DNA of 22,939 nt. It comes from a virus. The notes beneath the pieces are model-generated. The model was given only the letters and a program-made list of their open reading frames with translations, ran no database searches and had not been told where the DNA came from. Where the stretch lies: positions 1 to 22,939 of the IMG/VR virus record IMGVR_UViG_3300031707_000189; one strand, given 5' to 3'. Below are positions 3,344 to 22,096 of the stretch, one piece after another (within the stretch, counting starts at the first letter, position 1; the number at the start of each line of letters is the position of its first letter). The position numbers and the translations under genes were made by a program.

Positions 3344-3354
3344 AATTGATGTTG

Positions 3355-3820: not shown

Positions 3821-3845
3821 TTTTTGATTTGTTAAAGTGAAAAAA

Positions 3846-3911: not shown

Positions 3912-3937
3912 CAAACCTAAACATCAACACAAATATA

Positions 3938-4186
3938 TTAATTTTCGTGTGAATACGGCAACAATAAAATTCGGTGAAAATCACCAATGGTTTCAAAATT
4001 TAATATTCCGATTCCAGAACGGCGCAATTGATGCACAAATTCATCCAAATCAACACAACGTTCAACCATCACCCCGCGGATTAAATCGGTTTCAAATTCT
4101 GGTGTGAATCCAACTAATTTTTCCCCGTTGGTTAATTTGCAAATGATTTGTGCAATGTCAATTTTGGATGGTGTTTTATGCAACAT
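3938..4186 (-). CDS. Hypothetical protein (82 aa)
   Basis: An 82-residue soluble protein (MLHKTPSKIDIAQIICKLTN...) with a middle FETDLIRGVMVERC and a C-terminal DFHRILLLPYSHEN. Its start overlaps the end of the 165-aa gene upstream by 11 bases, and it is the last gene before the long-loop terminator. Alternating charged and hydrophobic residues suggest a small alpha/beta fold. No family recognised and no cysteines arranged for metal binding. Confidence 0.6.
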   Translation of the reverse strand: MLHKTPSKIDIAQIICKLTNGEKLVGFTPEFETDLIRGVMVERCVDLDEFVHQLRRSGIGILNFETIGDFHRILLLPYSHEN

Positions 4187-5074: not shown

Positions 5075-5247
5075 TTTGATTGTTCTAATTGTTCGTAAAA
5101 TAGTCTTTTTTTGGTTGGCAAATCTGTTAAATTCAAATCAACATGTTTACCAAACACAAATGATTGCCTTTTTTCTTTGATTTGATGCGGTTGTGTGCAT
5201 TTTATCATTGAAAGCGATACGATTGTAAAGATTAATGTTTTTTTCAT
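5071..5247 (-). CDS. Small secreted or lipoprotein-like protein (58 aa)
   Basis: Hand translation of the gap between neighbours gives 58 codons from an ATG at 5247 to a TGA overlapping the YopX-like start. The N-terminus MKKTLIFTIVSLSMIKCTQP looks like a lipoprotein signal: two lysines, a hydrophobic core and a cysteine at residue 17. The residues before the Cys (M-I-K) are not an ideal lipobox, so export is likely but lipidation is unsure. The rest is polar (ending FYEQLEQSK). Phage lipoproteins of this size include superinfection-exclusion factors and outer spanins. It is far from the lysis genes, which makes exclusion or a moron function the better guess. Confidence 0.6.
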   Translation of the reverse strand: MKKTLIFTIVSLSMIKCTQPHQIKEKRQSFVFGKHVDLNLTDLPTKKRLFYEQLEQSK

Positions 5248-5249
5248 GT

Positions 5250-5582
5250 TTAAATCGCTTGTTTTTTAATAATCCAAAATGAACCAAATTTGATTCCGTT
5301 GTATAAAACCATCAATGATTGATGTTTAATCACTGCGCATGGAAATGGTCGGTGAATCCAAAAAATTGATTTATCAACATCCAGAACAAACAACAATGTT
5401 TCAATATCCTTTATTTGACGAACAAAAACCATGTTTTTTGAACAATTATCACCAATTTGAATTGGTTTTTTGATTGCAAACGGTTTTTTTTCACATGCGC
5501 ATTTTCCGCAAACATGGCGAAATGTTCCATCTTTTCGTTTGAATGAACATTTTGTGATTTGGTGTTTTTTACAAATTTCCAT
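5250..5582 (-). CDS. Hypothetical protein with Cys/His-rich N-terminus (110 aa)
   Basis: A 110-residue protein whose first 32 residues carry C4, H7, C12, H23, C25, C28 and C30 (MEICKKHQITKCSF, then HVCGKCACEKK). This resembles a small zinc ribbon, like the 'CkkHg.t.f.......yrCkkC' modules of phage HNH-type proteins, but the HNH part is absent. The remainder is beta-rich (MVFVRQIKDIETLLFVLDVD, then WIHRPFPCAV). The start at 5582 lies 2 bases after the upstream stop at 5585. Nucleic-acid binding is a reasonable guess and nothing more specific can be said. Confidence 0.6.
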   Translation of the reverse strand: MEICKKHQITKCSFKRKDGTFRHVCGKCACEKKPFAIKKPIQIGDNCSKNMVFVRQIKDIETLLFVLDVDKSIFWIHRPFPCAVIKHQSLMVLYNGIKFGSFWIIKKQAI

Positions 5583-5584
5583 GG

Positions 5585-5893
5585 TTATTTTTTTGAAAGT
5601 AAGTAATTCAACATTTTCAATTGTTCTTTCATCGGTTTCAATTCCGATTTCAACAATTTTGGTTTTTTCGTTCCAATAATCTTTTCCGTGAATGCGATTT
5701 TATGAATTGTTTCATCACGTTGTTGATTTATGAATTGTTCGGTTGGGTTTGTTTTCAGATAGTAAATGCACAACTTTAAAAATCTGGATTCATCCCCCGC
5801 CTTTTTTAATTGGCGGGGCGTGAAATCATTTCGTTTGGAATGTTCGGATTGAATCGCGTTGATTGAATCGCGGATTTGGTCAATTGTTTTCAT
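5585..5893 (-). CDS. Hypothetical helical protein (102 aa)
   Basis: A 102-residue, mostly helical, basic protein (MKTIDQIRDSINAIQSEHSK... ending EQLKMLNYLLSKK). The segment RNDFTPRQLKKAGDESRFLK is notable for its charge. It overlaps the upstream gene by 9 bases and ends 2 bases before the Cys/His protein starts. No family recognised. It sits in the run of small accessory genes driven by the promoter at 6586. Confidence 0.6.
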   Translation of the reverse strand: MKTIDQIRDSINAIQSEHSKRNDFTPRQLKKAGDESRFLKLCIYYLKTNPTEQFINQQRDETIHKIAFTEKIIGTKKPKLLKSELKPMKEQLKMLNYLLSKK

Positions 5894-6302
5894 TTTCGGC
5901 GTTTTTTATTTCAATTGACAATTCATTGACTTGCATTTTTAAATCATGCAATTTTTGCGCTTTTTGCGCTTTCAACTTTTCCGCCATTTCTTGTTTGTTG
6001 ATTCCTAAATAATCATTCACAAATTCAGTATAAAAGACAATCAACGCGTTTATTTCTGAAATGGTCAAATTGTACGGAATTTTTATCATTCCAGAATACA
6101 ACGAAATTTCAATTTCTTTTTTCCATTCATTCACGGGTGAAAAATAAATTGCCATTGTTTTGAAATTGTCATTCGTATAAATTCCAATGTTGACGTTTTC
6201 ATTATTAAAATCATTTCGTGTTCCTTGTGAAAGTTGATTTTCTTTTGCGATTTCAACGCATTGATTCGCTAATTGTACTAATTGTTTTACTTGCTTGTTC
6301 AT
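5880..6302 (-). CDS. Hypothetical protein with C-terminal coiled coil (140 aa)
   Basis: A 140-residue protein. Residues 1-100 look globular (NEWKKEIEISLYSGMIKIPY is beta-rich). Residues about 105-140 are a heptad-like coiled coil (EKLKAQKAQKLHDLKMQVNE...) rich in K, E, A and L, suggesting oligomerisation. The leader contains the AACATC element seen before several other starts in this phage. Second gene of the accessory transcript. No family recognised. Confidence 0.6.
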   Translation of the reverse strand: MNKQVKQLVQLANQCVEIAKENQLSQGTRNDFNNENVNIGIYTNDNFKTMAIYFSPVNEWKKEIEISLYSGMIKIPYNLTISEINALIVFYTEFVNDYLGINKQEMAEKLKAQKAQKLHDLKMQVNELSIEIKNAENENN

Positions 6303-6321
6303 GATGTTTGATTTTGATGGT

Positions 6322-6555
6322 TTATATTAAAGATTTGATTAAAAGTTCGATTTTTTCCATTGTCATTGTTGGCAATGTGATTTCACGCGTTGTTTCGAAT
6401 TCATGCATTTCACATGTTCCATCCATTTGAATCCAAATGTCGATTTGGTCACAATTTAAAATGAACCAATCCATAAAATCCCCGCGTGATTTTGTTGATG
6501 ATAATTTGAAACCTAGTTGTTCCAATTGTTCCCGTGTAAAGTTGTAAAATGCCAT
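6322..6555 (-). CDS. Hypothetical protein (77 aa), first gene of the accessory operon
   Basis: A 77-residue acidic protein (MAFYNFTREQLEQLGFKLSS... ending EKIELLIKSLI). The beta-rich centre (WFILNCDQIDIWIQMDGTCE) could form a small sheet. It is the first gene after the promoter at 6586-6615, whose -7 box ends 31 bases before this ATG. The leader just before ATG is a run of A with a CA inside, the same as at several other starts here. No family recognised. Confidence 0.65.
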   Translation of the reverse strand: MAFYNFTREQLEQLGFKLSSTKSRGDFMDWFILNCDQIDIWIQMDGTCEMHEFETTREITLPTMTMEKIELLIKSLI

Positions 6556-6585
6556 TTTTTATGTTTTTTTAAATGTTTCTGTTTT

Positions 6586-6616
6586 CAAATATAGTTTTTA
6601 AATACAATATAACAAT
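6586..6616 (-). promoter_or_regulatory. Bacteroidota-type promoter, copy 1
   Basis: On the minus strand a -33-like TTG (6615-6613) is followed after 19 bases by TATATTTG (6593-6586), matching the Bacteroidota -7 consensus TAnnTTTG. It drives the accessory genes starting at 6555. The 19-base spacer (TTATATTGTATTTAAAAAC) is nearly the same as in the copies at 9988 and 13800. Spacers are normally free to vary, so this points to recent duplication or an operator. Confidence 0.8.
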
Positions 6617-6649
6617 AGCAAAATGAAAATAATTTAAAATAAATATAAC

Positions 6650-6682
6650 ATTAAAACAAAAAACCCACGTTTCCGCGGGTTT
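6650..6682 (-). terminator. Intrinsic terminator at end of early block
   Basis: The minus strand reads AAACCCGCG, loop GAAA, CGTGGGTTT, then a T-rich tail (TTTGTTTT). The 9-bp stem contains one G-U pair and a stable GNRA-type GAAA loop. It follows the stop of the small HTH gene at 6708 and precedes the promoter at 6586. Nearly identical to the terminator at 13861-13897. Confidence 0.88.
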
Positions 6683-6707
6683 CGTGATTAAATTATTTTT
6701 TACTTTT

Positions 6708-6920
6708 TTACTTTGAATTGATAAATTTTCCGATTTTTTCCATTGTTGTGGAATGCAAACCTTTTGATTCATCACCCGAATTCATGTACAACCACAATTG
6801 GTTTTGATGAACGCCAGAACCACGGGCAAACGCGTTCAAAGTTAGTTTTTTCTTTTCCATTGATTCGGAAATCATTTTGCGCGTTAACGCATTAATGTTT
6901 GACAAGTCTTTTGAGGTCAT
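6708..6920 (-). CDS. Small HTH regulator (XRE/Cro-like, 70 aa)
   Basis: A 70-residue protein with a likely helix-turn-helix at about residues 26-48: LTLNAFARGSGVHQNQLWLY fits the XRE pattern (helix, turn at G-S-G-V, recognition helix beginning at H38). The C-terminal helix TTMEKIGKFINSK also matches Cro-like folds ('s..tl.kI..~l'). Last gene of the early block, ending 26 bases before the terminator. It could bind the repeated promoter spacer at 6594, 9996 and 13808, which is inference. The start ATG at 6920 overlaps or abuts the upstream stop region (6922). Confidence 0.75.
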   Translation of the reverse strand: MTSKDLSNINALTRKMISESMEKKKLTLNAFARGSGVHQNQLWLYMNSGDESKGLHSTTMEKIGKFINSK

Positions 6921-6921
6921 T

Positions 6922-7224
6922 TTATCCGTTATTTGAATTAATACCCATTAATTCCATTTTCCATGCTTCTAATGAATTAAAACATTGCGTTTGTCCATTC
7001 TTATCAACGAACAATCGACCGCGCAAATTAACATCAACGGAAACGGTATCACCGATTTTGTACATGTTCAATAAATCACATTTATCATTCGCAAATTGAA
7101 TTTTTAAATGTTGCGGGTATTGCTCCAATGTTTCAACGATAAATTCACGCTTCGCATATTTTTCTGTTACTTGGTTTTTATCGCCAATTGCGTATAAAAC
7201 ACCATCAATTTTTGTGTTTGACAT
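6922..7224 (-). CDS. DUF3127-like protein, probable SSB substitute
   Basis: A 100-residue beta-rich protein. The features match DUF3127, a Bacteroidota family thought to have an OB fold: REFIVETLEQYPQHLKIQFA, then LLNMYKIGDTVSVDVNLRGR and FNSLEAWKMEL, in the same order as in the family ('F.ve....yPq...fq', 'GD.V.v..n.rGr', 'Yfn.l.aW.i'). It sits directly after the exonuclease and ERF genes, so a single-strand DNA-binding role in recombination is likely (inference). The ATG at 7224 is chosen over an upstream TTG at 7251, which would overlap the preceding gene. The leader before ATG is A-rich. Confidence 0.8.
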   Translation of the reverse strand: MSNTKIDGVLYAIGDKNQVTEKYAKREFIVETLEQYPQHLKIQFANDKCDLLNMYKIGDTVSVDVNLRGRLFVDKNGQTQCFNSLEAWKMELMGINSNNG

Positions 7225-7237
7225 TTTTTCTGTTTTT

Positions 7238-8200
7238 TTAAATTTGTTCAAAAATTAAATCATAATATTCACGCGCCATTTCAACGCGCTTTTTGATTTT
7301 TTCAATTACCGCATCATCTTTTTTGATGATGTATTGTTTCACCCTTTTTTCAATTGGAATTTGCGAATAGGTGTTTATTTCGCGAATTCTGGATTCAATC
7401 ATTGTTTCGATTTCAGATTGTGACATTTCCGCGAATTTCGGATTTCCTAATGAACGCCAAATTTCGCGTTGTATCATGTCAATCAACATTTGTTCGGGTG
7501 TATCTGTTAAAACAAACACCAATTCACATTCATTGCGCCCCGTTAACCACATGTATGTTTGCATTTGATAGAAATATGCCTTTGTCGGGTTTTCATCCTT
7601 AAACCATGGGAATGTTAATCCATCCCATGATGATTTGACATCCGCCAACAATGTTGGTGTCAAAACATCTGGTTCGCCACAAACCCATTCATTGAACAAT
7701 CGTTTTTTGTTTTCCGTAACATCAAACCATCCCAAAACTTCGGATGCCATTTCAATTGAAATTGGTTCATTTTGAATTCCCTTTTCCATTTGCTTTGTCG
7801 AAAAATCCTTTTCAATCCCATATTTATCAAACAAAACAATTTTTTGGATTTCTTTTTTTCCCGTTTCTGAAAGTTCGGGTTTTGCATCGCGTTTTGCGGT
7901 TAAATCCGCTATTTTATCCAATTGCGGTTGTGTGTAATGCGGTTTGTCCAATAACTTGTTCAATTCATCCAATTGCTTTTCGGTTATCGGTTTACGCGGT
8001 TTTCCGTTTTCCATTATTTCGTTTGGAAAATCACGAATAATAATCAATTCATCAATTTTTTTTGATTGTGAATCGGAATATTTCGGGCGTTCTAAAAGTT
8101 CATTTAATTCATTCAATTGAATTTCCGTGATTGATGTTTTTGAATTTTCCGCCATGATTGCGCCAACAGATGTTGCGCGAATAATTAATTGATGTTTCAT
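7238..8200 (-). CDS. YqaJ/lambda-exonuclease-type recombination nuclease
   Basis: A 320-residue PD-(D/E)XK nuclease that would resect double-strand ends for the ERF annealing protein encoded next to it. The N-terminus IIRATSVGAIMA resembles the 'RaSs.g.im' start of YqaJ nucleases. Catalytic residues are visible: E145 in GIQNEPISIE, D178 in CGEPDVL, D187 and K189 in LLADVKSSW, and the helix YFYQMQTYMWLTG (Q212/Y216). Between the N-terminus and the core are two tandem copies of a helical unit (TEIQLNELNELLERPKYS and TEKQLDELNKLLDKPHYT), about 50 residues apart, forming a spacer. The ATG at 8200 is preferred to a TTG ten codons upstream. Operon order is ERF, nuclease, DUF3127. Confidence 0.85.
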   Translation of the reverse strand: MKHQLIIRATSVGAIMAENSKTSITEIQLNELNELLERPKYSDSQSKKIDELIIIRDFPNEIMENGKPRKPITEKQLDELNKLLDKPHYTQPQLDKIADLTAKRDAKPELSETGKKEIQKIVLFDKYGIEKDFSTKQMEKGIQNEPISIEMASEVLGWFDVTENKKRLFNEWVCGEPDVLTPTLLADVKSSWDGLTFPWFKDENPTKAYFYQMQTYMWLTGRNECELVFVLTDTPEQMLIDMIQREIWRSLGNPKFAEMSQSEIETMIESRIREINTYSQIPIEKRVKQYIIKKDDAVIEKIKKRVEMAREYYDLIFEQI

Positions 8201-8254
8201 ATTTTTGATGTTTAAATTGGTTTTTTGCAATATTAATAATTTATTTCAATATAA

Positions 8255-8839
8255 TCACACATTCATTTCGTCAATTGTCAAAATTTGTTGTTCGTTCAAA
8301 TCATATTTGGTTTTAATGTACTCTTTTGTGTATTCATTTGATTGAATCCCACCAACGGCGCGAATAAATTGTTTTTCATTCAACTTTGGTTTTTCAACTT
8401 GTGTTCCCTTTTTTGCAATCTGTTTTGGTGCGCCAAATCCATCCGTGTCGCAATCCGTAACGATTCCCAAAATTGATGAAAGCGCGTATCTTTTCAATGT
8501 TGTGATTTGACTTCCCAGAACTTGCAATTTGTTCATTTTCATCAATTCCATTTCGGGGAAAATGTCGATTGAACTTTGTATTTTTTCACCGCTTTCAATG
8601 TGAAAAATAATTGTGATAACAGAACCGCCAACAATCGGTTGCGTGAACCCCAAACCCACTTGTTTCAAAAATGGCGCGATTTGCGCAACGATTGTTGCCA
8701 TGTCCGCGTATTTATATCCATGTCCTTTTGTTTGTTTCTCTATTACGGGGCAAAGGTTTTGAAATTCCGCCAATGCTTTGTATAAATTCAACGGGTTTTG
8801 ATTTGATGATGCGGGTGTTTGTTGTTCGATGATTTCCAT
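8255..8839 (-). CDS. erf: ERF-family single-strand annealing protein
   Basis: A 194-residue recombinase that would pair complementary single strands during phage replication and circularisation. ERF family signs are ALAEFQNLCPVIEKQTKGHG, then YKYADMATIVAQIAPFLKQV with GLGFTQPI, a beta hairpin (SVITIIFHIESGEKIQSS), and ITTLKRYALSSILGIVTDCD followed by TDG, the ERF 'TYaRRYaL...lgi...DdDG' motif. The C-terminal 50 residues are variable, as usual. The ATG at 8839 is chosen because the frame upstream runs into the preceding gene's tail. It lies 2 bases after that gene's stop (8842). Confidence 0.9.
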   Translation of the reverse strand: MEIIEQQTPASSNQNPLNLYKALAEFQNLCPVIEKQTKGHGYKYADMATIVAQIAPFLKQVGLGFTQPIVGGSVITIIFHIESGEKIQSSIDIFPEMELMKMNKLQVLGSQITTLKRYALSSILGIVTDCDTDGFGAPKQIAKKGTQVEKPKLNEKQFIRAVGGIQSNEYTKEYIKTKYDLNEQQILTIDEMNV

Positions 8840-8841
8840 GA

Positions 8842-9585
8842 TTAAAAGTTTTTTGAAAATAAATAAGTAATGTAACAAATAGAAAATACCATTGTGACCG
8901 CCAAACAAATCAATGACAACGCCATGAATTTTTCATATTGCGTTAAATGAATGTATTTGCCGGGGCGTTGTTCATCTATTTCATCATGGTTTATGAATTC
9001 GGAAACCATGGATGAATCGGTTGGTGCAACAAATGGAACATCCGATTTTTCCACCTTTTGTTCTTTCATCTTTTGTTCCCATGCTTTCATTGCGTTTTCA
9101 TCCAATTCAATCACCTTTGTTGATTTTCGCATTTGTCGTTCCAATAACGTTTCACGTTTTCCAATATCTGGTGCATCAAAATCAAATTCCATTGCGGTTT
9201 CACATTTCGGTGTTCCCGTATTTAATAACCCACCGCCCAATTCAATTGGTTGAATTTTTCGTTCTTTAACTTGAAATGTTCCATTTGCTTTTCGCATACG
9301 CAAATCTATTTGATAACGTTTCAATTTGCTTTCAATGGCGTTCACAACTTCAATTGATGGAAATGCGCCAATCCAACGATGTTGTCCAATGCCAATTTTA
9401 ACAATAATATTCAATTCTTTTAAAACGGTAACAACTTGTTTTGAACAATTAAATCGTTCCGCAATTTTTGATGTTGAAACCGTTGAATCCGCATCCAATT
9501 GCGCTTTCAATTCCTTAATAAAACGCAAATAGATTTCGCGCTTCAAATGCTTTGGGTGTGAAACCCTTTTGTTTTTTGTGTTCAT
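8842..9585 (-). CDS. HTH protein with C-terminal membrane anchor (247 aa)
   Basis: A 247-residue protein with an unusual build. Residues about 36-60 (VSTSKIAERFNCSKQVVTVL) look like a helix-turn-helix, followed by WIGAFPSIEVV. The middle is charged and probably disordered (RKSTKVIELDENAMKAWEQK). Residues 220-243 (FMALSLICLAVTMVFSICYI...) form one hydrophobic span just before a four-residue tail, so the protein would be tail-anchored in the inner membrane with the HTH in the cytoplasm. It lies directly upstream of ERF. It might tether DNA or replication factors to the membrane. No family is recognised. Confidence 0.7.
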   Translation of the reverse strand: MNTKNKRVSHPKHLKREIYLRFIKELKAQLDADSTVSTSKIAERFNCSKQVVTVLKELNIIVKIGIGQHRWIGAFPSIEVVNAIESKLKRYQIDLRMRKANGTFQVKERKIQPIELGGGLLNTGTPKCETAMEFDFDAPDIGKRETLLERQMRKSTKVIELDENAMKAWEQKMKEQKVEKSDVPFVAPTDSSMVSEFINHDEIDEQRPGKYIHLTQYEKFMALSLICLAVTMVFSICYITYLFSKNF

Positions 9586-9605
9586 GTTTATTTATGTTTA
9601 TTGGT

Positions 9606-9752
9606 TTACTTATTTGAATTTTTGATTCGAACATATTTTGAACGAACTTTAAATTTTTCGGAAATTGTCATTGAATCATATTTTTCAATTGATATTCCAA
9701 CGGCATCACAAATGATGGCGTTTAATTCTGGAATTGATTTTGATGTTTTCAT
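9606..9752 (-). CDS. Small hypothetical protein (48 aa)
   Basis: Hand translation of the space between neighbours shows 48 codons from an ATG at 9752 (MKTSKSIPELNAIICDAVGI...) to a TAA at 9606. The start is 2 bases after the upstream stop (9755) and the next gene starts 20 bases later. The sequence (EKYDSMTISEKFKVRSKYVR) is helical and basic towards the end and may be a tiny DNA-binding or adaptor protein. No family recognised. Confidence 0.6.
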   Translation of the reverse strand: MKTSKSIPELNAIICDAVGISIEKYDSMTISEKFKVRSKYVRIKNSNK

Positions 9753-9754
9753 GA

Positions 9755-9955
9755 TTAATCAATTATTTTTTCATCAATTGAAACAATTGTTGTGTCAATA
9801 TGAAATTGTTCATCACATTCACCGCAAAAATCAAATTTTCTATCTTTTTGATTATTTGACATTTTTAAAAATTCTTTGTATTCGGATTTTGTCATTTCAA
9901 CAACTTTTGTCATTTGAAATGTTTGCGTTTCCGTGTATGTGATTTCAACTTTCAT
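9755..9955 (-). CDS. Small hypothetical protein (66 aa), first gene after promoter copy 2
   Basis: Starting at the ATG at 9955 the product is 66 residues (MKVEITYTETQTFQMTKVVE...). A beta-hairpin N-terminus is followed by KSEYKEFLKMSNNQKDRKFD, a CGEC pair (FDFCGECDEQFH), and an acidic tail. A longer reading from a TTG at 10009 would translate through the promoter at 9988 and is rejected. The CGEC pair could bind metal or form a disulfide. No family recognised. Confidence 0.6.
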   Translation of the reverse strand: MKVEITYTETQTFQMTKVVEMTKSEYKEFLKMSNNQKDRKFDFCGECDEQFHIDTTIVSIDEKIID

Positions 9956-9987
9956 AATTATACTATTTTTTTGTGCGTTTCTGGCTT

Positions 9988-10018
9988 CAAATCTAAAAAT
10001 TAAATACAATATAACAAC
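9988..10018 (-). promoter_or_regulatory. Bacteroidota-type promoter, copy 2
   Basis: Minus strand: TTG (10017-10015), 19 bases, then TAGATTTG (9995-9988), matching TAnnTTTG. The spacer shares TTATATTGTATTTAA with copy 1. It drives the genes from 9955 on, which include the HTH-membrane protein and the recombination set. Unlike the other two copies it has no intact terminator upstream. The region 10031-10088 between it and ninG has no gene. Confidence 0.78.
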
Positions 10019-10088
10019 AACAAAATGAAAATAAATTAAAAAAATATAGGAAATAATTTAGGACATCAATGATGGCGCGGGTTTTGAA

Positions 10089-10658
10089 TCACAAAAATTT
10101 TTCAATTCTTTTGTTGATTTCTTTGTATTGTTCAATTAATTCAATCAATTCATGTTTCATGTAATGCCGTTTTTCATGCCGTATTGATTCCAAACGCATC
10201 AATTCATCCGTTCCAATCCTTTGTTCAATTCCAATTCGGTATTCATGCGGATTTGAACCCAAATGTTGATTGCAATGCACACATTGACCGTGAACATTCG
10301 TTGGTTCGAATCTTAAATTTCCGTAAACGCCAACGCTGAAAAAATGCCCCGCATCATATTTGATTTGTTTGGTTAAAATCGTTTCACATGAAATGCATTT
10401 TTTGCCCAAATCACGCAAACGAATGTATTTGTTGAATATGATTTGCAATTCATTTTTGTAATGGCTCAAATTCGGCGTTGTTTTCAGATTTTCAACCATT
10501 ATTTTTTTTCTGGTGTGCCAATTCTTTGATTCTTGAATTTTGTGTTTTTTCAACTTTTCCATTGCATCAACAAATTTGCAATCGGTGTTCCAACAATATT
10601 TTTCGAATGATGAAAATTTTGGTTCGAATTTTTCACCGCAATTTTTGCATTTTGCCAT
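10089..10658 (-). CDS. ninG: NinG/Rap-like recombination nuclease
   Basis: A 189-residue protein of the lambda NinG family, which in lambda (Rap) cleaves recombination intermediates. An N-terminal zinc knuckle has C4, C7, C22 and C27 (MAKCKNCGEKF..., YCWNTDC). A basic helix follows (KLKKHKIQESKNWHTRKKIM). Next is the HNH-like core: C88 and C91 (KKCISCET), H105 in YDAGHFFSVGVYGNLRFEPTN, and C126/C129 in HGQCVHCNQHLGSN. The length is close to lambda NinG (about 200). It is the first gene after the cassette-like array, with an ATG at 10658 and a 31-base leader. Its role in phage recombination agrees with the ERF and exonuclease genes downstream. Confidence 0.92.
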   Translation of the reverse strand: MAKCKNCGEKFEPKFSSFEKYCWNTDCKFVDAMEKLKKHKIQESKNWHTRKKIMVENLKTTPNLSHYKNELQIIFNKYIRLRDLGKKCISCETILTKQIKYDAGHFFSVGVYGNLRFEPTNVHGQCVHCNQHLGSNPHEYRIGIEQRIGTDELMRLESIRHEKRHYMKHELIELIEQYKEINKRIEKFL

Positions 10659-10689
10659 AATATCAACTTATAGGTTTATTATTTTGTGT

Positions 10690-10742
10690 TTATAACGTTA
10701 CCTAACTGACATTAAAACGTCAGTTAGCTTTTCATTAGCACC
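10690..10742 (-). repeat. attC-like site 3 (after gene C)
   Basis: Minus strand in order: GGTGCTAA (10742-10735), then a 9-bp stem CTAACTGAC / GTCAGTTAG (10727-10719 and 10710-10702) with an 8-base loop, then GTTATAA (10696-10690). The left outer arm complements the 5' boundary of gene C's cassette (10971-10978) and not the GTTATAA beside it, as expected when GTTATAA belongs to the next segment. It starts 4 bases after gene C's stop. Confidence 0.6.
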
Positions 10743-10746
10743 AATA

Positions 10747-10938
10747 CTACAATCCCTTCATATAATTAACTTCTGTTTCCTTTTCGCCTTTCAAAGCGTT
10801 TTTAGCATATTCATAAGCCTGTCTAACTTGTCTATCGTGGCAAGTAACACCTTTGCTACTGTTATGAATATTTGAAGTTATCCGTAAGGCTTCAATAATC
10901 GTTTCCAATTGAAACTTATAAATTGTTATTTCTTCCAT
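10747..10938 (-). CDS. Cassette gene C: hypothetical protein (63 aa)
   Basis: A 63-residue helical protein (MEEITIYKFQLETIIEALRI, then TSNIHNSSKGVTCHDRQVRQ, ending GEKETEVNYMKGL). The CHDRQVRQAYEYAKNALKGE segment is an amphipathic helix. No known family, although similar tiny proteins recur in Bacteroidota phages as far as I recall. The start at 10938 follows the leader AAATATAAATAGA. The gene is enclosed by 13-base inverted ends (GTA-T/C-TGGTGCTAA) with one mismatch, which define the cassette. Its stop is 4 bases before attC-like site 3. Confidence 0.65.
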   Translation of the reverse strand: MEEITIYKFQLETIIEALRITSNIHNSSKGVTCHDRQVRQAYEYAKNALKGEKETEVNYMKGL

Positions 10939-10970
10939 TCTATTTATATTTAAGTTAATTAATCCGTACT

Positions 10971-11032
10971 GGTGCTAACAGCGTATAAAAGCCATTGAAA
11001 AAACGGCTCTTATACGCAAAACGTTATAAGCC
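10971..11032 (-). repeat. attC-like site 2 (after gene B)
   Basis: Minus strand: GGCTTATAAC (11032-11023), spacer GTTTT, stem GCGTATAAGAGCC / GGCTTTTATACGC (11017-11005 and 10993-10981; 13 bp with one mismatch), 11-base loop, T, then GTTAGCACC (10979-10971). The two outer arms do not pair well with each other. The left arm pairs with gene B's 5' boundary, and the right arm with the hairpin after gene C. It begins 3 bases after gene B's stop. Confidence 0.62.
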
Positions 11033-11035
11033 ATT

Positions 11036-11224
11036 TTAAGACAACACCCATTCTAAAGTTAATAATTCAGCATTTCGTTGATGTAAATCACTAAAGAAAT
11101 CCGCATTGTATTCTTCCGAAACTCCACCATATTTCTCCTTATTTTCGTTTCTTTCTTTGTGCATTTCGTCAATGTCGTTTTTCAAATCCGCAATCTTTTT
11201 TTCTATTTCTTCTTTTGATTTCAT
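11036..11224 (-). CDS. Cassette gene B: coiled-coil hypothetical protein (62 aa)
   Basis: A 62-residue, highly charged, almost entirely helical protein (MKSKEEIEKKIADLKNDIDE, MHKERNENKEKYG, then DFFSDLHQRNAELLTLEWVL). Hydrophobic residues at heptad spacing suggest a coiled coil or helical hairpin. Small dimers of this kind are common cassette products. The ATG at 11224 has an A/T-rich leader (TTAATTAAA). The cassette ends are 15-base inverted repeats (AAAA-T/C-GGCTTATAAC) with one mismatch. No family recognised. Confidence 0.65.
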   Translation of the reverse strand: MKSKEEIEKKIADLKNDIDEMHKERNENKEKYGGVSEEYNADFFSDLHQRNAELLTLEWVLS

Positions 11225-11225
11225 T

Positions 11226-11330
11226 TTAATTAATATTTGTGAAGAAAAAACGGCTTATAACAGCACCTAAACGCAAAAAGGGTTTAAGTGCTTCGTCTGA
11301 CAATCTTTTGGTTAAATAACCTGTGTTCAT
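11226..11330 (-). CDS. Possible mini-ORF inside attC-like site 1 (34 aa)
   Basis: An ATG at 11330 opens a 34-codon frame (MNTGYLTKRLSDEALKPFLR...) ending 2 bases before gene B. The leader AAATATAAATAGA just before it is the same as before gene C. Half of the product is read from the hairpin arm itself, so it may be a remnant of a decayed cassette gene, or chance. Low confidence that it is translated. Confidence 0.25.
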   Translation of the reverse strand: MNTGYLTKRLSDEALKPFLRLGAVISRFFFTNIN

Positions 11331-11390
11331 TCTATTTATATTTTGTGGTTAAAATCCCTTTCTGCGTTTAGCTGCTCAACGTTATAACAC
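11252..11390 (-). repeat. attC-like site 1 (after gene A), long form
   Basis: Minus strand: GTGTTATAAC (11390-11381, overlapping the gene A stop), GTTGA, then arm GCAGCTAAACGCAGAAAGGG (11375-11356). About 65 bases further comes the matching arm CCCTTTTTGCGTTTAGGTGC (11282-11263), then T and GTTATAAGCC (11261-11252). The 20-bp arms have two mismatches. At 139 bp it is within the range of long attC sites such as Vibrio repeats. The loop contains the mini-ORF start and a small hairpin GGTTA-TT-TAACC. Confidence 0.6.
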
Positions 11391-11633
11391 AGTTTGCTCG
11401 TCAATAAAGTATTTGCAATTCTTTTCGGTATTCATCTCTTTATATCGGCATTCAGCTTTAAATCGGCAGTTATCGCAAACCGATTTTATAACAGTAGGTT
11501 GGTGCAATTTACTTAATATTGCATCTGCGATAAGTTCAAAATTATCTTCGTGTATTGCTTTTTCAGTTCTACTACGGTCAACATAACCACCGTACTCATT
11601 TAATAATTCTACAATTTCTTTCTTCGTTATCAT
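11382..11633 (-). CDS. Cassette gene A: Cys-containing hypothetical protein (83 aa)
   Basis: Starting at the ATG at 11633 the product is 83 residues (MITKKEIVELLNEYGGYVDR...). The first half is helical, with DNFELIADAILSKLHQPTV. The second half has SVCDNCRFKAECRYKEMNTE and KNCKYF, i.e. C-x2-C, a further C after five residues, and a last C: a likely small metal-binding knuckle. The stop codon lies inside the outer arm of attC-like site 1, a compact arrangement typical of gene cassettes. An upstream TTG/GTG start at 11666 is possible but less likely. Confidence 0.65.
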   Translation of the reverse strand: MITKKEIVELLNEYGGYVDRSRTEKAIHEDNFELIADAILSKLHQPTVIKSVCDNCRFKAECRYKEMNTEKNCKYFIDEQTVL

Positions 11634-11684
11634 AATCTTTCTTTTTATATTCGTAAACTTCACCAACCTACATGACGTTATAAA

Positions 11685-12524
11685 TTAATTACTTTCTTTT
11701 CCTTTTGGATTTTCACACCAAATAATCATTTTTTCAAAATATATTTTGATGGCGATTTTGTAACATTCAGAAATCACCGCATTTTCATTTTCTTTTGGTA
11801 TCCCCAACGCATCCAAAAATGCTTTTTTCTTTTCAAATTCCGCGCGGTTAATTGATTTTTGATTTTGAATATTATGTTTCATTTTTTCAACGTTTTCAAT
11901 CGCTTCAATTTTGATTTTGGCTTTTTGTTCGTTGGTTAAAATATCGGGGAATTTATCACGTAAAGAATCATAAACGAATCGCGGGTTGGTTATTCCAAAA
12001 TCCAAATGATTTGTTTGTTTAAAATATTCGAACATCGGTTGAATAATTGTTTGCCAGAATTCCAATTGAATTTGTTTTATTTCGGCTTGTGTTGCTTCAT
12101 TCTTTTCATTCAATTCCTTTTGTTGAATTCGCATCAATTCCGCACCAACTTTTCCACGCATTTCCATGTATGAATTCATGATGTTTGCAAAATACAATGG
12201 TGAAAAATTCCCAAAATGGTTTGTTTCGCATGGGAATTGTTTTTTGATTGCTAATTCGAACGCAATTTTTATTTCATCCGCCGTGAAATGTGAATAATTA
12301 TCACGAATGAATTTTAATAATACCGCCGTTTCGATTTTATTGGGTATTTGTTCACCTTTTATGCCAACCAAGGTGAAAACATACCGCAACGACTGAAAAA
12401 TTGGTTCATCATCATCTAAATGACGAATTTTCACACCAAATTCAATTGCGTTTGCAATCTGGTTATTTTCCGAATTCTCGAATCGCTTGTTCCCGTGATT
12501 CTTGTGTGTTGGTAGATTTTCCAT
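11685..12524 (-). CDS. Hypothetical replication-linked protein (279 aa)
   Basis: A 279-residue, mostly helical, soluble protein. The segment PNKIETAVLLKFIRDNYSHF, then TADEIKIAFELAIKKQFPCE and NFSPLYFANIMNSYMEMR (about residues 60-139), resembles the conserved part of Bacteroidota phage proteins that lie next to DUF6291-type replication genes. The second half is charged with long helices (EKAKIKIEAIENVEKMKHNI). The start at 12524 overlaps the DUF6291-like gene by 62 bases in another frame, and no later ATG gives a sensible start before residue 117. A helicase-loader or primosome role is guessed from position. The cassette-like array begins directly after its stop. Confidence 0.65.
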   Translation of the reverse strand: MENLPTHKNHGNKRFENSENNQIANAIEFGVKIRHLDDDEPIFQSLRYVFTLVGIKGEQIPNKIETAVLLKFIRDNYSHFTADEIKIAFELAIKKQFPCETNHFGNFSPLYFANIMNSYMEMRGKVGAELMRIQQKELNEKNEATQAEIKQIQLEFWQTIIQPMFEYFKQTNHLDFGITNPRFVYDSLRDKFPDILTNEQKAKIKIEAIENVEKMKHNIQNQKSINRAEFEKKKAFLDALGIPKENENAVISECYKIAIKIYFEKMIIWCENPKGKESN

Positions 12525-13137
12525 TGATGTTTGTTTTTTGGTTTGTTATCCATTCATTTTTGAAACCCGCCCAACTATTTTGAACGCATAATTTCAATAT
12601 TTCATTAAAATCCACATTTGGATTTCCTTTTTTTACCTCAAAGATAAAAGAATTAAATGCGGTTTTTGTATTCACCGATTTTTTTGCTTTTCGAACCATC
12701 AACCATTCATCGACCAATTCAGAATCAAAACCGTATTTGATTAATTCGTTTCTAAAATTATATTTTGTTTCTTTTTTTAAAAGAATATCACTAACAGTTA
12801 CATTAACAGTTCCATTTACAGTTGAATTTGTTGGAATTTGTTCAACAAATTCAACATGTGTTGATTGTGTTACATTTTGTTTACGTTTGTTGGCTGAAAT
12901 TGTCCCCGCTTGTGAACGTTTTTCACGCATCGATTCCCATTTAACCAAATCGCGTTTGAATTGTTGTTTGATTGGCTCAAAAAGAACATCCAACAACAAA
13001 TCATCAACAACGGGATTTTCATCATTGACATACGCCAAAATTAATTTGAAAAGTTTTCCCGCCGTTTCATCTGGTAATTTTTGCAAAACGTGTTTCAAAT
13101 CTGAATACAACACGAATGATTTTTTATTTTCCGCCAT
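12463..13137 (-). CDS. DUF6291-like protein, probable phage replication initiator
   Basis: A 224-residue protein. The N-terminus KSFVLYSDLKHVLQKLPDET, then AGKLFKLILAYVNDENP, LDVLFEPIKQQFKRDLVKWE and MREKRSQAGTISANKRK (residues about 5-98), is characteristic of DUF6291. This family is common in phages and mobile elements and often carries a C-terminal DnaD-like or winged-helix part. Here a linker rich in T, V and N (residues 100-120) leads to a second domain (FRNELIKYGFDSELVDEWLM... and WAGFKNEWI), as in primosomal or replisome-organiser proteins. Likely role: origin binding or helicase recruitment. Only the family resemblance is seen. Confidence 0.75.
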   Translation of the reverse strand: MAENKKSFVLYSDLKHVLQKLPDETAGKLFKLILAYVNDENPVVDDLLLDVLFEPIKQQFKRDLVKWESMREKRSQAGTISANKRKQNVTQSTHVEFVEQIPTNSTVNGTVNVTVSDILLKKETKYNFRNELIKYGFDSELVDEWLMVRKAKKSVNTKTAFNSFIFEVKKGNPNVDFNEILKLCVQNSWAGFKNEWITNQKTNINGKSTNTQESREQAIREFGK

Positions 13138-13140
13138 GGT

Positions 13141-13374
13141 TTAAATGTTTGATTGAATTATGTGTGTTATTTGCTCTTTTGAATCGATTTCAACACGGGT
13201 TTCCCTTTTTACATTATATTCCATGCAAAACGTGAAATTTGACGTTAAAACGGAAAATTCACCGTTTTCATGTCCATCCATCAATTGTTGTTTTAAAACC
13301 GTGAAAATATAATTCAAATCTTTTAAATTTTCAATTGAAATGTCGATGGAAATGTTTTTAACTTTTTTCGGCAT
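13141..13374 (-). CDS. Hypothetical protein (77 aa)
   Basis: A 77-residue small alpha/beta protein (MPKKVKNISIDISIENLKDL, NYIFTVLKQQLMDGHENGEF, then EYNVKRETRVEID). The ATG at 13374 lies one base after the TGA of the 58-aa gene (13376), and the stop is 3 bases before the replication gene's ATG, so all three are co-translated. No family recognised. The alternation of strands and a single helix suggests a beta-alpha-beta-beta fold. Confidence 0.62.
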   Translation of the reverse strand: MPKKVKNISIDISIENLKDLNYIFTVLKQQLMDGHENGEFSVLTSNFTFCMEYNVKRETRVEIDSKEQITHIIQSNI

Positions 13375-13375
13375 G

Positions 13376-13552
13376 TCAAATGGATTGATTTACAACGTTA
13401 CAAAAGCGCAAATACAATTCAACGTTGAACGAACCGCCCTTGTCATTTTCAGATGATTGACCGCGCCAATGGCGAATCATTTTTGCCATTGTTGGTGTGT
13501 ACGGGATGAAATCATTTTTAATTTCTTTTTTGATGTTTTTTGATTGTGCCAT
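13376..13552 (-). CDS. Small basic hypothetical protein (58 aa)
   Basis: Found by translating the gap: an ATG at 13552 opens 58 codons (MAQSKNIKKEIKNDFIPYTP..., then MAKMIRHWRGQSSENDKGGS), ending at TGA 13376. The product is basic at the N-terminus and ends LYLRFCNVVNQSI. It lies one base before the next start. A Bacteroidota promoter (13576-13606) has its -7 box 24 bases upstream. No family recognised. DNA binding is possible. Confidence 0.65.
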   Translation of the reverse strand: MAQSKNIKKEIKNDFIPYTPTMAKMIRHWRGQSSENDKGGSFNVELYLRFCNVVNQSI

Positions 13553-13575
13553 GATTTTGATGTTTTTTAAGTTTA

Positions 13576-13606
13576 CAAATATAATTTTTTAGTATTATTA
13601 AACAAA
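13576..13606 (-). promoter_or_regulatory. Bacteroidota-type promoter with perfect consensus boxes
   Basis: Minus strand: TTTG (13606-13603), 19 bases, then TATATTTG (13583-13576), a full match to TTTG-N19-TAnnTTTG. The spacer differs from that of the three repeated promoters. It overlaps the last codons and stop of the 57-aa gene and would give the 58-aa gene and the replication genes their own start. Confidence 0.72.
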
Positions 13607-13771
13607 TTTTCGTATTAACTCGGTCGTTATTTTTAAATCCATTTCAACAAAATATTTTGCAACATCACTTGAAAATGTTCTTTTTTGTTCTTTTTGCAAT
13701 TCTCTTTTGGATGTTCTTAATAAATCCAATAATAAATTGATTTCGTCTTTTGATAATTTGAAATTTTCCAT
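13598..13771 (-). CDS. Small helical hypothetical protein (57 aa), first early gene
   Basis: Found by translating the gap: an ATG at 13771 opens 57 codons (MENFKLSKDEINLLLDLLRT, SKRELQKEQKRTFSSDVAKY...), ending at TAA 13598. It is helical, charged, with many K, E and L residues. It starts 29 bases after the -7 box of promoter copy 3 with an A-rich leader, so it should be among the first proteins made from the early block. Its size and charge suit a host-interaction or regulatory factor. No family recognised. Confidence 0.65.
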   Translation of the reverse strand: MENFKLSKDEINLLLDLLRTSKRELQKEQKRTFSSDVAKYFVEMDLKITTELIRKFV

Positions 13772-13799
13772 TTTTCGTTTTTTAAATTGTTTCTATTTT

Positions 13800-13830
13800 C
13801 AAAACTAACTTTTAAATTCAATATAACAAT
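13800..13830 (-). promoter_or_regulatory. Bacteroidota-type promoter, copy 3 (early block)
   Basis: Minus strand: TTG (13829-13827), 19 bases (TTATATTGAATTTAAAAGT), then TAGTTTTG (13807-13800), matching TAnnTTTG. It is located just after the late-block terminator. Spacer and flanks match copy 1 at 6586 over more than 60 bases. Confidence 0.8.
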
Positions 13831-13860
13831 ACTTTTTTAAAAATAATTTAATTTAATATA

Positions 13861-13897
13861 ATAAATAAAACAAAAAAACCCACGTTTCCGTGGGTTT
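13861..13897 (-). terminator. Intrinsic terminator at end of late block
   Basis: The minus strand reads AAACCCACG, loop GAAA, CGTGGGTTT (perfect 9-bp stem, 13897-13889 and 13884-13876), then TTTTGTTTT. It follows the endolysin-like gene's stop (13925) by 27 bases and separates late from early transcription. Confidence 0.92.
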
Positions 13898-13924
13898 CAT
13901 GATGAATTTATTTTTTGCTTTTTT

Positions 13925-14494
13925 TTAAAATTCCTTTAAAATAGCCACATTTAATGTGTTTTTATTCATCAATAATAACCAGCTCAAAAATTGTTTTTCA
14001 ACGTTTCGAACCAAACATGCGGTCGACCAATTTGCAATCACGGTTGAATTTGCCCCCGCGCGGTGACAATTTGCCCCAATAATATCACCATATTGTTTTC
14101 CGATTTCTTCGGCTTTCTTGTCCTTGTCATTATCACGGAAATAAGGGAATCCGCGTTTTTGTCGGTATGCCGGTTTTCCTTTGTGTAATCCATACGAATG
14201 CGAATCATAAACAATGCAATCCGCTTTCAGAACCGCACAACCCAATGAATTATATTCATCAAAATGTTCCAATCCAAATTGCCCCGCATTTGTTGTTCCG
14301 GTGCAAACCATTTTGAAAATTGGTTTCCGATCTGGAAAACATTGAAATGTGTATGCCTTATCATCAAACGCGTTGAATTCATCCTTTGCGGAACGAACCC
14401 ACACATCCAAAAACCCATCCTTTGGGAATCCTTTAAATGATGGCAACGATGCAACCCGCGCCAACAATTGTTCATCGGTGTAATTTTTAACCAT
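13925..14494 (-). CDS. Candidate endolysin (peptidoglycan-active enzyme)
   Basis: A 189-residue protein that follows two small membrane proteins, as an endolysin follows a holin. An N-terminal helical part (YTDEQLLARVASLPSFKGFP) leads to a domain with DDKAYTFQCF..., FKMVCTGTTNAGQFGLEHFD, KADCIVYDSHSYGLHKG and NCHRAGANSTVIANWSTACL. The histidines H99, H104 and H144 and the cysteine C160 in 'H-R-A-G ... N-W-S-T-A-C' recall the HxG...S-x-G-C site of YkuD L,D-transpeptidases, a resemblance I regard as suggestive only. I have seen this family in Bacteroidota phages without a firm function. No signal peptide. It overlaps the holin-like gene by 8 bases and ends just before the terminator. Confidence 0.6.
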   Translation of the reverse strand: MVKNYTDEQLLARVASLPSFKGFPKDGFLDVWVRSAKDEFNAFDDKAYTFQCFPDRKPIFKMVCTGTTNAGQFGLEHFDEYNSLGCAVLKADCIVYDSHSYGLHKGKPAYRQKRGFPYFRDNDKDKKAEEIGKQYGDIIGANCHRAGANSTVIANWSTACLVRNVEKQFLSWLLLMNKNTLNVAILKEF

Positions 14495-14714
14495 TTTCGT
14501 TTGTTTTATCGGTTTTTTCTACTTGCAAACCATTAACAACGGCATGTGTTCCGAACGCAAAAACAACAACATACATTGCAACGGTTGCGATTGGATTGGT
14601 AATTAATCCCGTTGCAATTATTCCCGCGCAAACGGTCGCACATTTGGATGAAAAACGCCCCCACTTTTTATTGTATGCGGGTGTTTTTGCTTTGAATCTT
14701 TGAATTATGTTCAT
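14487..14714 (-). CDS. Small two-span membrane protein, holin-like (75 aa)
   Basis: A 75-residue protein with a basic N-terminus (MNIIQRFKAKTPAYNKKWGR), two hydrophobic segments at about residues 25-40 and 43-62 (CATVCAGIIATGLITNPIAT, VAMYVVVFAFGTHAVV), and a polar charged tail (EKTDKTNENG). This is the layout of a class II holin. It overlaps the candidate endolysin by 8 bases, which supports a lysis pair. Families of Bacteroidota holins are diverse, so the call rests on topology and context. Confidence 0.65.
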   Translation of the reverse strand: MNIIQRFKAKTPAYNKKWGRFSSKCATVCAGIIATGLITNPIATVAMYVVVFAFGTHAVVNGLQVEKTDKTNENG

Positions 14715-14730
14715 GACGTATATTTTTCCG

Positions 14731-14964
14731 TTATTTTGCTTTTAAATTTTCAATTTCCGAATCATGAACCGCAACCATCTTTGAAAGATAACTATTATTT
14801 TTTGCTAATTCCTTTAACATTTCCGTTGTTTCGGCATGTTTTTTATCGTTCGTTTTAATAATCATCACTAAAATAATCCCTATCAAAAAAATGACAATTG
14901 AAAATGGAATCCAATTCCCATTCATGGTTTGTTGCGCAATTTGTTGAACTTCTAAACTATCCAT
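14731..14964 (-). CDS. Small single-span membrane protein with coiled coil (77 aa)
   Basis: A 77-residue protein with a short N-terminal helix (MDSLEVQQIAQQTMN), one membrane span at about residues 16-36 (WIPFSIVIFLIGIILVMIIK), and a charged helix to the end (KKHAETTEMLKELAKNNSYL). It could be an alternative holin or an inner-membrane spanin-like subunit. It sits 16 bases before the holin-like gene in the lysis region. No partner lipoprotein is seen beside it. Confidence 0.65.
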   Translation of the reverse strand: MDSLEVQQIAQQTMNGNWIPFSIVIFLIGIILVMIIKTNDKKHAETTEMLKELAKNNSYLSKMVAVHDSEIENLKAK

Positions 14965-14966
14965 TT

Positions 14967-15275
14967 TTAAAAAATTGTAATGAATGAATCAATTATGTTT
15001 TTTGTCGGTAACGATGCCAAATCATAATCAACAACAAATTCATTGTTTGAAATGGTTAATGGCGTTACACGGTTTAAATCAATCCCAATTGGGGCGTTTA
15101 AAATCGTTATTGAACCGAAATGTTTCATTTCAGATGAAAAGAAATCATTAAACTTTGCCAATTGTTCGGTTGTGAATTCATTTATGTTAACAAAAACCTC
15201 TTTTCCATCAATTAATCCCATGATGCAATTGGTTGTTTCGGGCGCGTTTGAACCGCTTAAAATATTTATTTTCAT
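14967..15275 (-). CDS. Hypothetical protein (102 aa)
   Basis: A 102-residue beta-rich protein (MKINILSGSNAPETTNCIMG..., then EVFVNINEFTTEQLAKFNDF). It ends with IIDSFITIF, a hydrophobic strand. It lies between the beta-helix protein and the lysis genes, 2-3 bases from each neighbour, so it is likely a late protein, either an appendage part or an assembly factor. No family recognised. Confidence 0.6.
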   Translation of the reverse strand: MKINILSGSNAPETTNCIMGLIDGKEVFVNINEFTTEQLAKFNDFFSSEMKHFGSITILNAPIGIDLNRVTPLTISNNEFVVDYDLASLPTKNIIDSFITIF

Positions 15276-15278
15276 TAT

Positions 15279-16823
15279 TTAGAATTTAGGTGTTTTTAAT
15301 AACGCATCAACCGTGAAACCTAGTGACAATTGATTTGTAATGTTTAAATTTAATATTTTATTTGAAACGACATTTGTAAATTGGCACGTTTTTGCAATTG
15401 TACTTTTTACAAATTCACCTAGTAAACCATCTATTTGTGAAACGCAATTAACAACAAAAAGATTTGTTGTTCCCCCCGCATCCAAACTAATTGTTGTTCC
15501 GTCAACAAGCGAATTGTATAAACTGCAATTCATTAAGTATAATGTACCCGCATACATGAAAATTGGATTTCCAGATGTCGCATCACAACTAATTGTTCCA
15601 TTTTTAACAACTATTAATCCAATACCTTGTGTAATTATGTTATTTATATTTGATTGTAAATTTCCGTTTAAAACAATTCGACCAACACCAACATTTGCAC
15701 CCCACAATCCAACAGTTGTTCCCCCGTAAATGTTTCCGTTTATTGTGATTTGACATTGTGAACCGCTAGTATTTAAAACCATGGCTGAAATACCGCCCAA
15801 ATATGCGGGTGATTCGTTTATTAAATCACCGTTTATTGTCAATTCACTTGTTGCGCTTGTCGATGTACAATAAACTATGTGTTTAAAATTACCGCCATAA
15901 ACATTTGCTAATGTTAATATGCTTTTAGGGCAATTTATTATCACTTTACCCAAATGACTTGCATGTAATTGTTGATGTGAATGTGGTGATTTAATATAGT
16001 TTTTCACATTGATATTTACATTACAATTGTTACGCCATGAAAACGCAAACCCACTTCCAACTGTTCGTGTTGATTCAATTGAATTGAAATTGAATGTGAT
16101 GTTTGATGTGCCAACGGTCACATTGTATGCTAAACAGATTGCACCGTTATTGACTAATTTGTCACCCTCTATTAAAACTTCACTTTCAAATTGCCATCTA
16201 AATGGATATTGCGACATTCTTAAATCCCATTTTGCGCTCCCATACCAATTAAAATTCACCGCCGAACCTGACAATTGGTCACTTAAATAAAAATAACCCG
16301 TGAAAACAACCCCAGATTCGCAATAAACATCACAATTATTAAATGGTGTAATGTTACCCGCGTTGAAAAATTCACCCGCACGAACAACAACAACGCCCCT
16401 TGTGGATTTTGTCAACGTTTGACTTGCAACACTATTCAACGCGGTATTAATTGTTAAAAATGGTTTATCAAAACGACCAATCAATCCCGTTGAATCATTT
16501 CCGTTTATATTATCCACAAATGCAACGGTTGAATAATTTATTGGGTTTCCGCCCCCACCGCCAAGGGGCAACTTAAAACCCGTGTTTGCGCGTAAAAATG
16601 TTAAAAGATAATTTGAATCGATTACATTATCGTTGTCGTCAGTCCACAAACCATCTGTAATTTGTTGAAATGGAATTACCATTTGCCCAAATTCCGATTC
16701 ACGAATAATGAATGATTCATCTTTAATTGTGTAAACTGTATTCCCTTTGGAATATTCCGAAACAACACCAATTCCGTTTTGTTCAACGATGATGTAATTT
16801 CCTGATAAATATATTCTATTCAT
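15279..16823 (-). CDS. Beta-helix (pectate-lyase-like) virion appendage protein
   Basis: A 514-residue protein. After an N-terminal part of about 95 residues ending in a poly-Gly hinge (LPLGGGGGNP), the segment VAFVDNINGNDSTGLIGRFD, then KPFLTINTALNSVAS, is the typical entry into a right-handed parallel beta-helix. It is followed by many short repeats rich in N, G, I and V (VINCPKSILTLANVYGG, ITINGNIYGGTTVGLW, IVLNGNLQSNINNI). Such proteins serve as tailspikes or fibre tips that bind or cut surface polysaccharide. No catalytic residues can be named. It is the last large gene of the tail block, where host-range genes lie. Confidence 0.82.
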   Translation of the reverse strand: MNRIYLSGNYIIVEQNGIGVVSEYSKGNTVYTIKDESFIIRESEFGQMVIPFQQITDGLWTDDNDNVIDSNYLLTFLRANTGFKLPLGGGGGNPINYSTVAFVDNINGNDSTGLIGRFDKPFLTINTALNSVASQTLTKSTRGVVVVRAGEFFNAGNITPFNNCDVYCESGVVFTGYFYLSDQLSGSAVNFNWYGSAKWDLRMSQYPFRWQFESEVLIEGDKLVNNGAICLAYNVTVGTSNITFNFNSIESTRTVGSGFAFSWRNNCNVNINVKNYIKSPHSHQQLHASHLGKVIINCPKSILTLANVYGGNFKHIVYCTSTSATSELTINGDLINESPAYLGGISAMVLNTSGSQCQITINGNIYGGTTVGLWGANVGVGRIVLNGNLQSNINNIITQGIGLIVVKNGTISCDATSGNPIFMYAGTLYLMNCSLYNSLVDGTTISLDAGGTTNLFVVNCVSQIDGLLGEFVKSTIAKTCQFTNVVSNKILNLNITNQLSLGFTVDALLKTPKF

Positions 16824-16844
16824 GGCTTCAATTTTTTTTCAAAG

Positions 16845-18296: not shown

Positions 18297-18298
18297 GT

Positions 18299-19638: not shown

Positions 19639-19640
19639 AT

Positions 19641-22095: not shown

Positions 22096-22096
22096 T

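Follow-up and report, generated by a model that had tools for sequence, protein, structure and literature searches.

The DNA between a 279-aa phage gene and ninG in a viral contig of 22,939 nucleotides (the window, that is, the whole stretch analysed) is very probably a recently imported, integrase-less array of integron cassettes (CALIN), in which cassettes would be swapped by an integron recombinase supplied in trans and attC sites read out into the following cassettes. In bacteria, integron cassettes are known above all for carrying resistance and defence genes. The CALIN assignment is based on independent covariance models, the signature of the cassette ends, a foreign composition with matching edges, and the replacement of cassettes at G|TT between closely related phages that carry the same attC family. 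The agreement among these results bore out an earlier interpretation made from the letters alone (the sequence-only reading), which had proposed an integron-like cassette array in a phage. The features are listed in Table 1.

Table 1. Features of the block and its flanks in the window, and tyrosine recombinase genes found beside arrays in other records.
Feature	Coordinates	Strand	Remarks
Whole block, very probably imported	10690..11684	minus	between 279-aa gene and ninG; 3 cassettes, 4 attC
Left flank, 279-aa phage gene (phrog_26016)	11685..12524	minus	
attC0	11486..11683	minus	198 nt; R'' TTATAAC, R' GTTATAA; crossover between 11492 and 11491
attC0 stem boxes			L'' GTAGGTTGGTG, L' CACCAACCTAC; loop, ATG + 47 codons
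83-aa reading frame, predicted chimera	11382..11633	minus	join 11492|11491, ...SKLHQPT|VIKSVC...
Cassette 1	11261..11491	minus	G|TT to G|TT; R'' TGTTAT vs own 5' end TTTTAT, 5/6
attC1	11255..11387	minus	133 nt; model R2, 92.0 bits
Cassette 2	10979..11260	minus	holds 62-aa coiled-coil-like gene, 11036-11224
attC2	10973..11029	minus	57 nt, short class; model R1, 52.0 bits, E 4e-11
Cassette 3	10696..10978	minus	holds 63-aa gene, 10747-10938
attC3	10690..10740	minus	model R1, 24.9 bits, E 3e-4; loop CGTTTTAATG
Right flank, ninG	10089..10658	minus	Pfam NinG, E 2e-35
Array-side recombinase, L160	2490-3284		264 aa
Array-side recombinase, L161	13010-13840		276 aa
Array-side recombinase, G025			432 aa
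Array-side recombinase, phi13:2 gp038			428 aa

The sequence-only reading had claimed three hairpins, each an attC-like site behind a small gene. All three were present on the minus strand within a few bases of where they had been placed, and they were recognized there both by attC covariance models (92, 52, and 25 bits) and by folding of the gene strand, with z-scores of -4.5 for attC1, -4.2 for attC2, and -3.2 for attC3. Its count of sites was incomplete, as a fourth site, attC0, which overlaps the 5' half of the first “gene”, had been missed. The two covariance models were built entirely from sites on off-window contigs, R1 from 20 short attC-like sites and R2 from 44 sites of about 130 nt. 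Together, they recovered all four attC sites, every one on the minus (gene) strand and thus in the orientation of the three small genes. The score of attC0 with R2 was 41.5 bits (E 5.5e-7); attC1 was missed by R2 when the whole window was scanned with default filters and reached 92 bits with the filters off. A simple detector, which looks for an R'' ending in AACG, an R' beginning with GTTA, and an L''/L' stem, gave scores of 17.7 for attC0 (R''-R' pairing, 7/7), 20.3 for attC1, and 15.4 for attC2, and no site scoring at least 15.4 arose when the minus strand was shuffled 100 times with its dinucleotides preserved. attC3 is outside the reach of the detector, with a degenerate R'' that reads AAT instead of AAC (CTAAT where CTAAC is expected); its loop is also seen in other sites of the short-attC alignment. 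In the two attC alignments, compensatory changes maintain the stems (96% and 92% paired), with covariation scores of 0.64–0.65 versus 0.16 after shuffling, which is supporting evidence only, since the sites were partly chosen by complementarity and the covariation is partly built in. GTTA was constant in the R' cores, this being partly a condition of the search, and the cores GTTATAA and GTTAGCA depart from GTTRRRY. At 198 nt, attC0 exceeds the usual length of an attC site.

Hairpins of ordinary transcription terminators, or of structured intergenic RNA uninvolved in recombination, would also sit between genes and fold as these do, and one terminator-like match overlaps attC3. This match, however, lies on the plus strand, whereas the genes are on the minus strand, where the sites gave no such match; in Rfam, no family matched the sites. 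Terminators, moreover, predict neither a match of R'' to the R' tail of the previous site, nor swaps at G|TT, nor a foreign block bounded by attC sites, and we give this explanation hardly any credence. Plain terminators occurring elsewhere, unrelated to gene boundaries, had been named in the sequence-only reading as an outcome that would speak against it; the hairpins were instead found to recur between the cassettes of arrays.

The cassette ends provided a further distinction. The final bases of R' in an integron are part of the cassette that follows, and the R'' of a cassette should therefore match the 5' end of that same cassette and not its present R' partner. The 5' end of cassette 2, GTTATAAGCC, is the exact reverse complement of its own R'', GGCTTATAAC (10/10), the cassette beginning with G|TTATAAGCC, and the 5' end of cassette 3, TTAGCACC, is likewise the exact reverse complement of its own R'', GGTGCTAA (8/8). 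Over about 119 consecutive attC pairs from viral contigs and phage records, R'' matched the own cassette end at a mean of 4.87 of 6 positions, with 58 perfect matches, versus a mean of 2.85 of 6 and a single perfect match for the present R'. Permuted pairs gave 2.88 (sd 0.098), which places the own-end match about 20 SD above them. A match of this kind marks cassettes that were circular and were cut at G|TT, and neither terminators nor random hairpins predict it.

The same data bear on the proposal that homologous recombination between conserved attC stems in co-infected cells is the only way in which the cassettes move, with no site-specific enzyme acting now. With nearly identical attC stems and loops present in many phages, crossovers could take place in the short stretches of common stem; an Erf-like annealing protein and an exonuclease are also encoded by the phage. 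Homologous recombination alone, however, leaves the match kept in R'' unexplained (58 perfect matches to the own end against 1 to the present R'), and circular cassettes cut at G|TT were therefore needed at some time. We consider exchange by homologous recombination only to be very unlikely and retain the CALIN with a recombinase supplied in trans as the preferred reading.

The block was also set apart by its composition, being the most atypical of 88 windows in 4-mer usage. Words avoided by the backbone occurred at 79 per kb in the block versus 10 per kb in the backbone, densely clustered between 11671 and 10724, and rho(AG/CT) was 0.89 in the block and 0.25 in the backbone. The edges of the foreign composition coincided with the first and last attC. 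On the left side, the foreign DNA starts at the R'' of attC0 and not at a bare cassette start, so that simple stepwise insertion fails to explain the left junction; from this edge, the array would have entered with a leading attC, whose own cassette was lost or was never more than attC0.

Several features of the backbone itself (1–10689 and 11685–22939) were observed along the way. It strongly avoids AG and CT (rho 0.25) and TA (0.47), with 1 GATC seen versus 67 expected, 1 AGCT versus 67, and 3 GAGA versus 101. The AG/CT rho is 0.22 in the relative L008, and the relatives L001, L002, L006, L009, and L010 have values of 0.20–0.31 for TA and 0.30–0.57 for CG. The avoidance may be driven by an enzyme or by a modification. 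The second most atypical composition was found at 15195–16939, over a 514-aa gene for a probable tail or fibre protein, and this region is possibly another import.

No direct relatives of the 279-aa gene were found in viral contigs, and hence no DNA-level relative was obtained from that gene. A search through ninG gave 80 loci, the best of which (L001–L010) were syntenic, with 49–54% identity in ninG and about 50% protein identity. Four of these, L001, L002, L008, and L009, were read base by base and are tightly packed, without cassettes, at the place of the block, and the attC models found no site in L001–L010. Retention of the same three genes by related phages had been regarded as evidence against an exchangeable array; 0 of the 10 nearest relatives keep them. 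No empty-site phage close at the DNA level was found, and a phage lacking the block would be expected to show the junction ...AATTAAT|TTATAAACAC....

Replacement of cassettes was seen in other members of the attC family. Contigs L095 and L109 have flanks 94–98% identical to those of L148; the sequences are common up to ...GTGCTG|TTAT, and different cassettes follow. The cassette of L148 recurs at 93% identity in L093, a contig that differs otherwise, where the short attC core preceding it is identical. The difference between L095/L109 and L148 is a cassette replacement at the expected crossover base.

Searches for the functions of the cassette genes gave few matches. Pfam and PHROGs contained no convincing family for the three genes, the cassette-1 protein had no match in 84,980 prokaryote genomes, and the cassette proteins had none in plasmids. 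Only the cassette-3 protein matched a phage protein, weakly, in Bacteroides phages DAC (45% over 51 aa, E 3e-3), where the relative sits in an ordinary packed gene context. The sole match of cassette 2, on contig L084, was rejected as a spurious coiled-coil similarity to a structural gene. The cassettes probably serve the phage as accessory or counter-defence genes.

We then consider the relation of the attC sites to the reading frames around them. A 94-aa frame for the first gene of the block was set aside, the 83-aa frame from the ATG at 11633, which starts inside attC0, being the better reading. The loop of attC0 contains an A-rich leader and this ATG, from which an in-frame stretch of 47 codons extends across L' and R' to cassette 1, and the frame is completed by 36 codons of cassette 1. 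The first “gene” of the block is thus, as read from its sequence, a chimera of attC0 and cassette 1. The attC0 stem occurs with other loops and other downstream cassettes in L086, L089, L090, L091, and L092; the N-part of the 83-aa frame is common to L091 and one L092 site (80–85% identity), and the C-parts differ past the join. Among 110 long attC sites, a continuation of at least 25 codons was found in phase 1 in 36 of the 46 with an open loop ATG versus 10 of the 64 without (p = 2.9e-11), and in phase 3 in 14/26 versus 18/84 (p = 0.002). In phase 2, no association between a loop ATG and a continued frame was seen in the same 110 sites. The fused products include, by inspection only, methyltransferase-like sequences and lipoprotein-like signal peptides. 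The loop of attC1 opens a 34-codon leader (11226–11330), which exits through R', leaving 1 nt between its stop and the ATG of the following gene, and the loop ATG of attC2 opens a 6-codon frame (10975–10995) ending at a TAG inside R'.

The loop CGTTTTAATG of the 54–57-nt attC sites was nearly invariant, and in 48 of 56 sites the phase-2 frame from its ATG reached R' without a stop, in a sample fetched partly with this loop as the search motif. The frame stops in R' where R' reads GTTAG and is a possible conserved leader ORF.

We consider it moderately likely that attC sites act in Bacteroidota phages also as exchangeable gene starts, which provide initiation regions and N-terminal codons in a frame common to many cassettes and so lead to chimeric proteins, and that a large pool of cassettes belongs to these phages themselves. 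The read-out frames, as seen at the sequence level, are probably translated.

The same attC family is widespread. Scans with cassette 1, the attC0 stem, and the short-attC motif revealed its arrays on dozens of viral contigs, and 15 of 39 array records contained a terminase match. Further members of the family were located in the cultured phages Cellulophaga phi13:2 and Tenacibaculum JQ as well as in a Chryseobacterium plasmid, and arrays of this family are carried by the uncultured phage genomes L169 (LR745206, 635 kb) and L170 (LR756500, 462 kb). The attC0 stem pattern CAACCTACTGTTATAARWTCGG had no match in prokaryote genomes, and a related pattern was present in five array-bearing viral contigs; a match on a sixth, L087, has no second attC arm and was dismissed as due to chance. 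Matches in Staphylococcus phages were many, but they were short, low-scoring, and all in one 42-base stretch, and were not accepted.

Two of the arrays have features of their own. On a 73-kb viral contig (G025 12868–24770, equal to L175 2868–14770), an array of at least 15 cassettes ends in several successive DNA methyltransferase-like genes, after which come an HTH gene and a gene for a tyrosine recombinase of 432 aa similar to phi13:2 gp038; one of the methyltransferase-like genes, at 21817–22461 of the contig, has an N-terminus from an attC. In L022 (2642–4474), ninG (3062–3604) lies between attC sites at 2642–2734 and 3717–3810, and a core-type gene may there sit in a cassette.

The identity of the acting recombinase was considered next to these arrays. 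A canonical IntI (TIGR02249) was found neither in the window nor, above the cut-off, in any of the 40 array records (the window and 39 others), and the window contains no tyrosine recombinase; a complete integron, with an intI gene having the IntI-specific region beside attI, was thus not seen. Four clear tyrosine recombinase genes, three among the 40 array records and one in phi13:2, are each located downstream of an array on the same strand (Table 1). Those of L160 and L161 are XerA/IntI-like and directly downstream of attC arrays, lack the IntI-specific stretch, and score below the IntI cut-off. Such positions, together with the absence of canonical IntI, would suit an integron-like phage system in which a phage-encoded tyrosine recombinase beside the arrays, and not an integron integrase, recombines the sites. 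The array-side recombinases, however, are of at least two kinds, XerA-like and 430-aa Bacteroidota-type integrases; their relatives are annotated as flavophage integrases and may simply mark an accessory region near attP, and the window and most array records are without a tyrosine recombinase. A phage-encoded enzyme of this sort appears unlikely, and supply of the integron recombinase in trans by the host is probably the default. Complete integrons are reported to be very rare in Bacteroidota (PMC9024848), and given this rarity, the phage arrays raise the question of the acting recombinase.

In the scheme that we favor, three cassettes and four attC sites would have entered a Bacteroidota phage recently, between the replication genes and ninG. 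An integron-type tyrosine recombinase provided in trans by a host integron or a co-infecting element would act on the folded attC strand at G|TT in R', and whole cassettes would thereby be excised, inserted, and exchanged among phages. In many long attC sites, a start codon in the loop and a frame open through L' and R' would lead into the next cassette, the downstream protein thereby receiving its initiation region and N-terminus from the upstream attC, as predicted for attC0 and cassette 1; short sites and attC1 would supply a short leader frame instead. Phages carry long cassette arrays exchanged at attC, some of them rich in DNA methyltransferase-like genes with a likely role in counter-defence. 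If start codons and N-termini come from attC loops, the shuffling of cassettes would be a natural protein-recombination device; to our knowledge, such a device has so far been considered mainly as an idea for engineering.

Phages with integrase-less cassette arrays have been reported before. CALINs have been published in 17 phages, including the Bacteroidota phage Polaribacter phage P12002L, for which two attC sites were assayed and one of them underwent recombination with IntI1 (Qi et al. 2023, PMC9892861); the present array is thus not the first in a Bacteroidota phage, the sequence-only reading having been unaware of one in the early region of such a phage. P12002L matched the same attC model with 56 bits, and methyltransferase genes and NinG lie in the same region of its genome. 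The published phage CALINs and the block are alike in having small genes bounded by attC in phage genomes without an integrase. The present data differ in the fourth, 198-nt attC with a coding loop, in the cassette-end statistics, foreign-composition edges, and replacement between close phages, and in a far wider spread that covers viral contigs and very large phages. The text of PMC9892861 makes no mention of start codons, and read-through attC sites carrying a start, together with replacement between related phages, were not described in the open-licence literature found.

With the cassettes of bacterial integrons, the block shares the R''/L''/L'/R' layout, the G|TT crossover, an R'' matching the own 5' end of the cassette, a folded single strand, and attC length classes of about 54 to 135 nt. 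It differs from bacterial integrons in a core of GTTA followed by T or G in place of a strict GTTRRRY, in the 198 nt of attC0, and in the lack of a canonical IntI beside the arrays. The closest parallel to the read-out is found in ORF-11 of attI1 and the short ORFs inside attC (Hanau-Bercot; Jacquier 2009; reviewed in PMC8876359), in which a start codon likewise lies at the recombination site and the frame crosses the crossover to be closed by the incoming cassette; the attC2 frame stops at a TAG within R', as ORF-11 of attI1 does (PMC8876359). ORFs of the ORF-11 type are short leader peptides linked to translational coupling, whereas many of the frames described here run for at least 25 codons and would form the N-terminus of the next protein.
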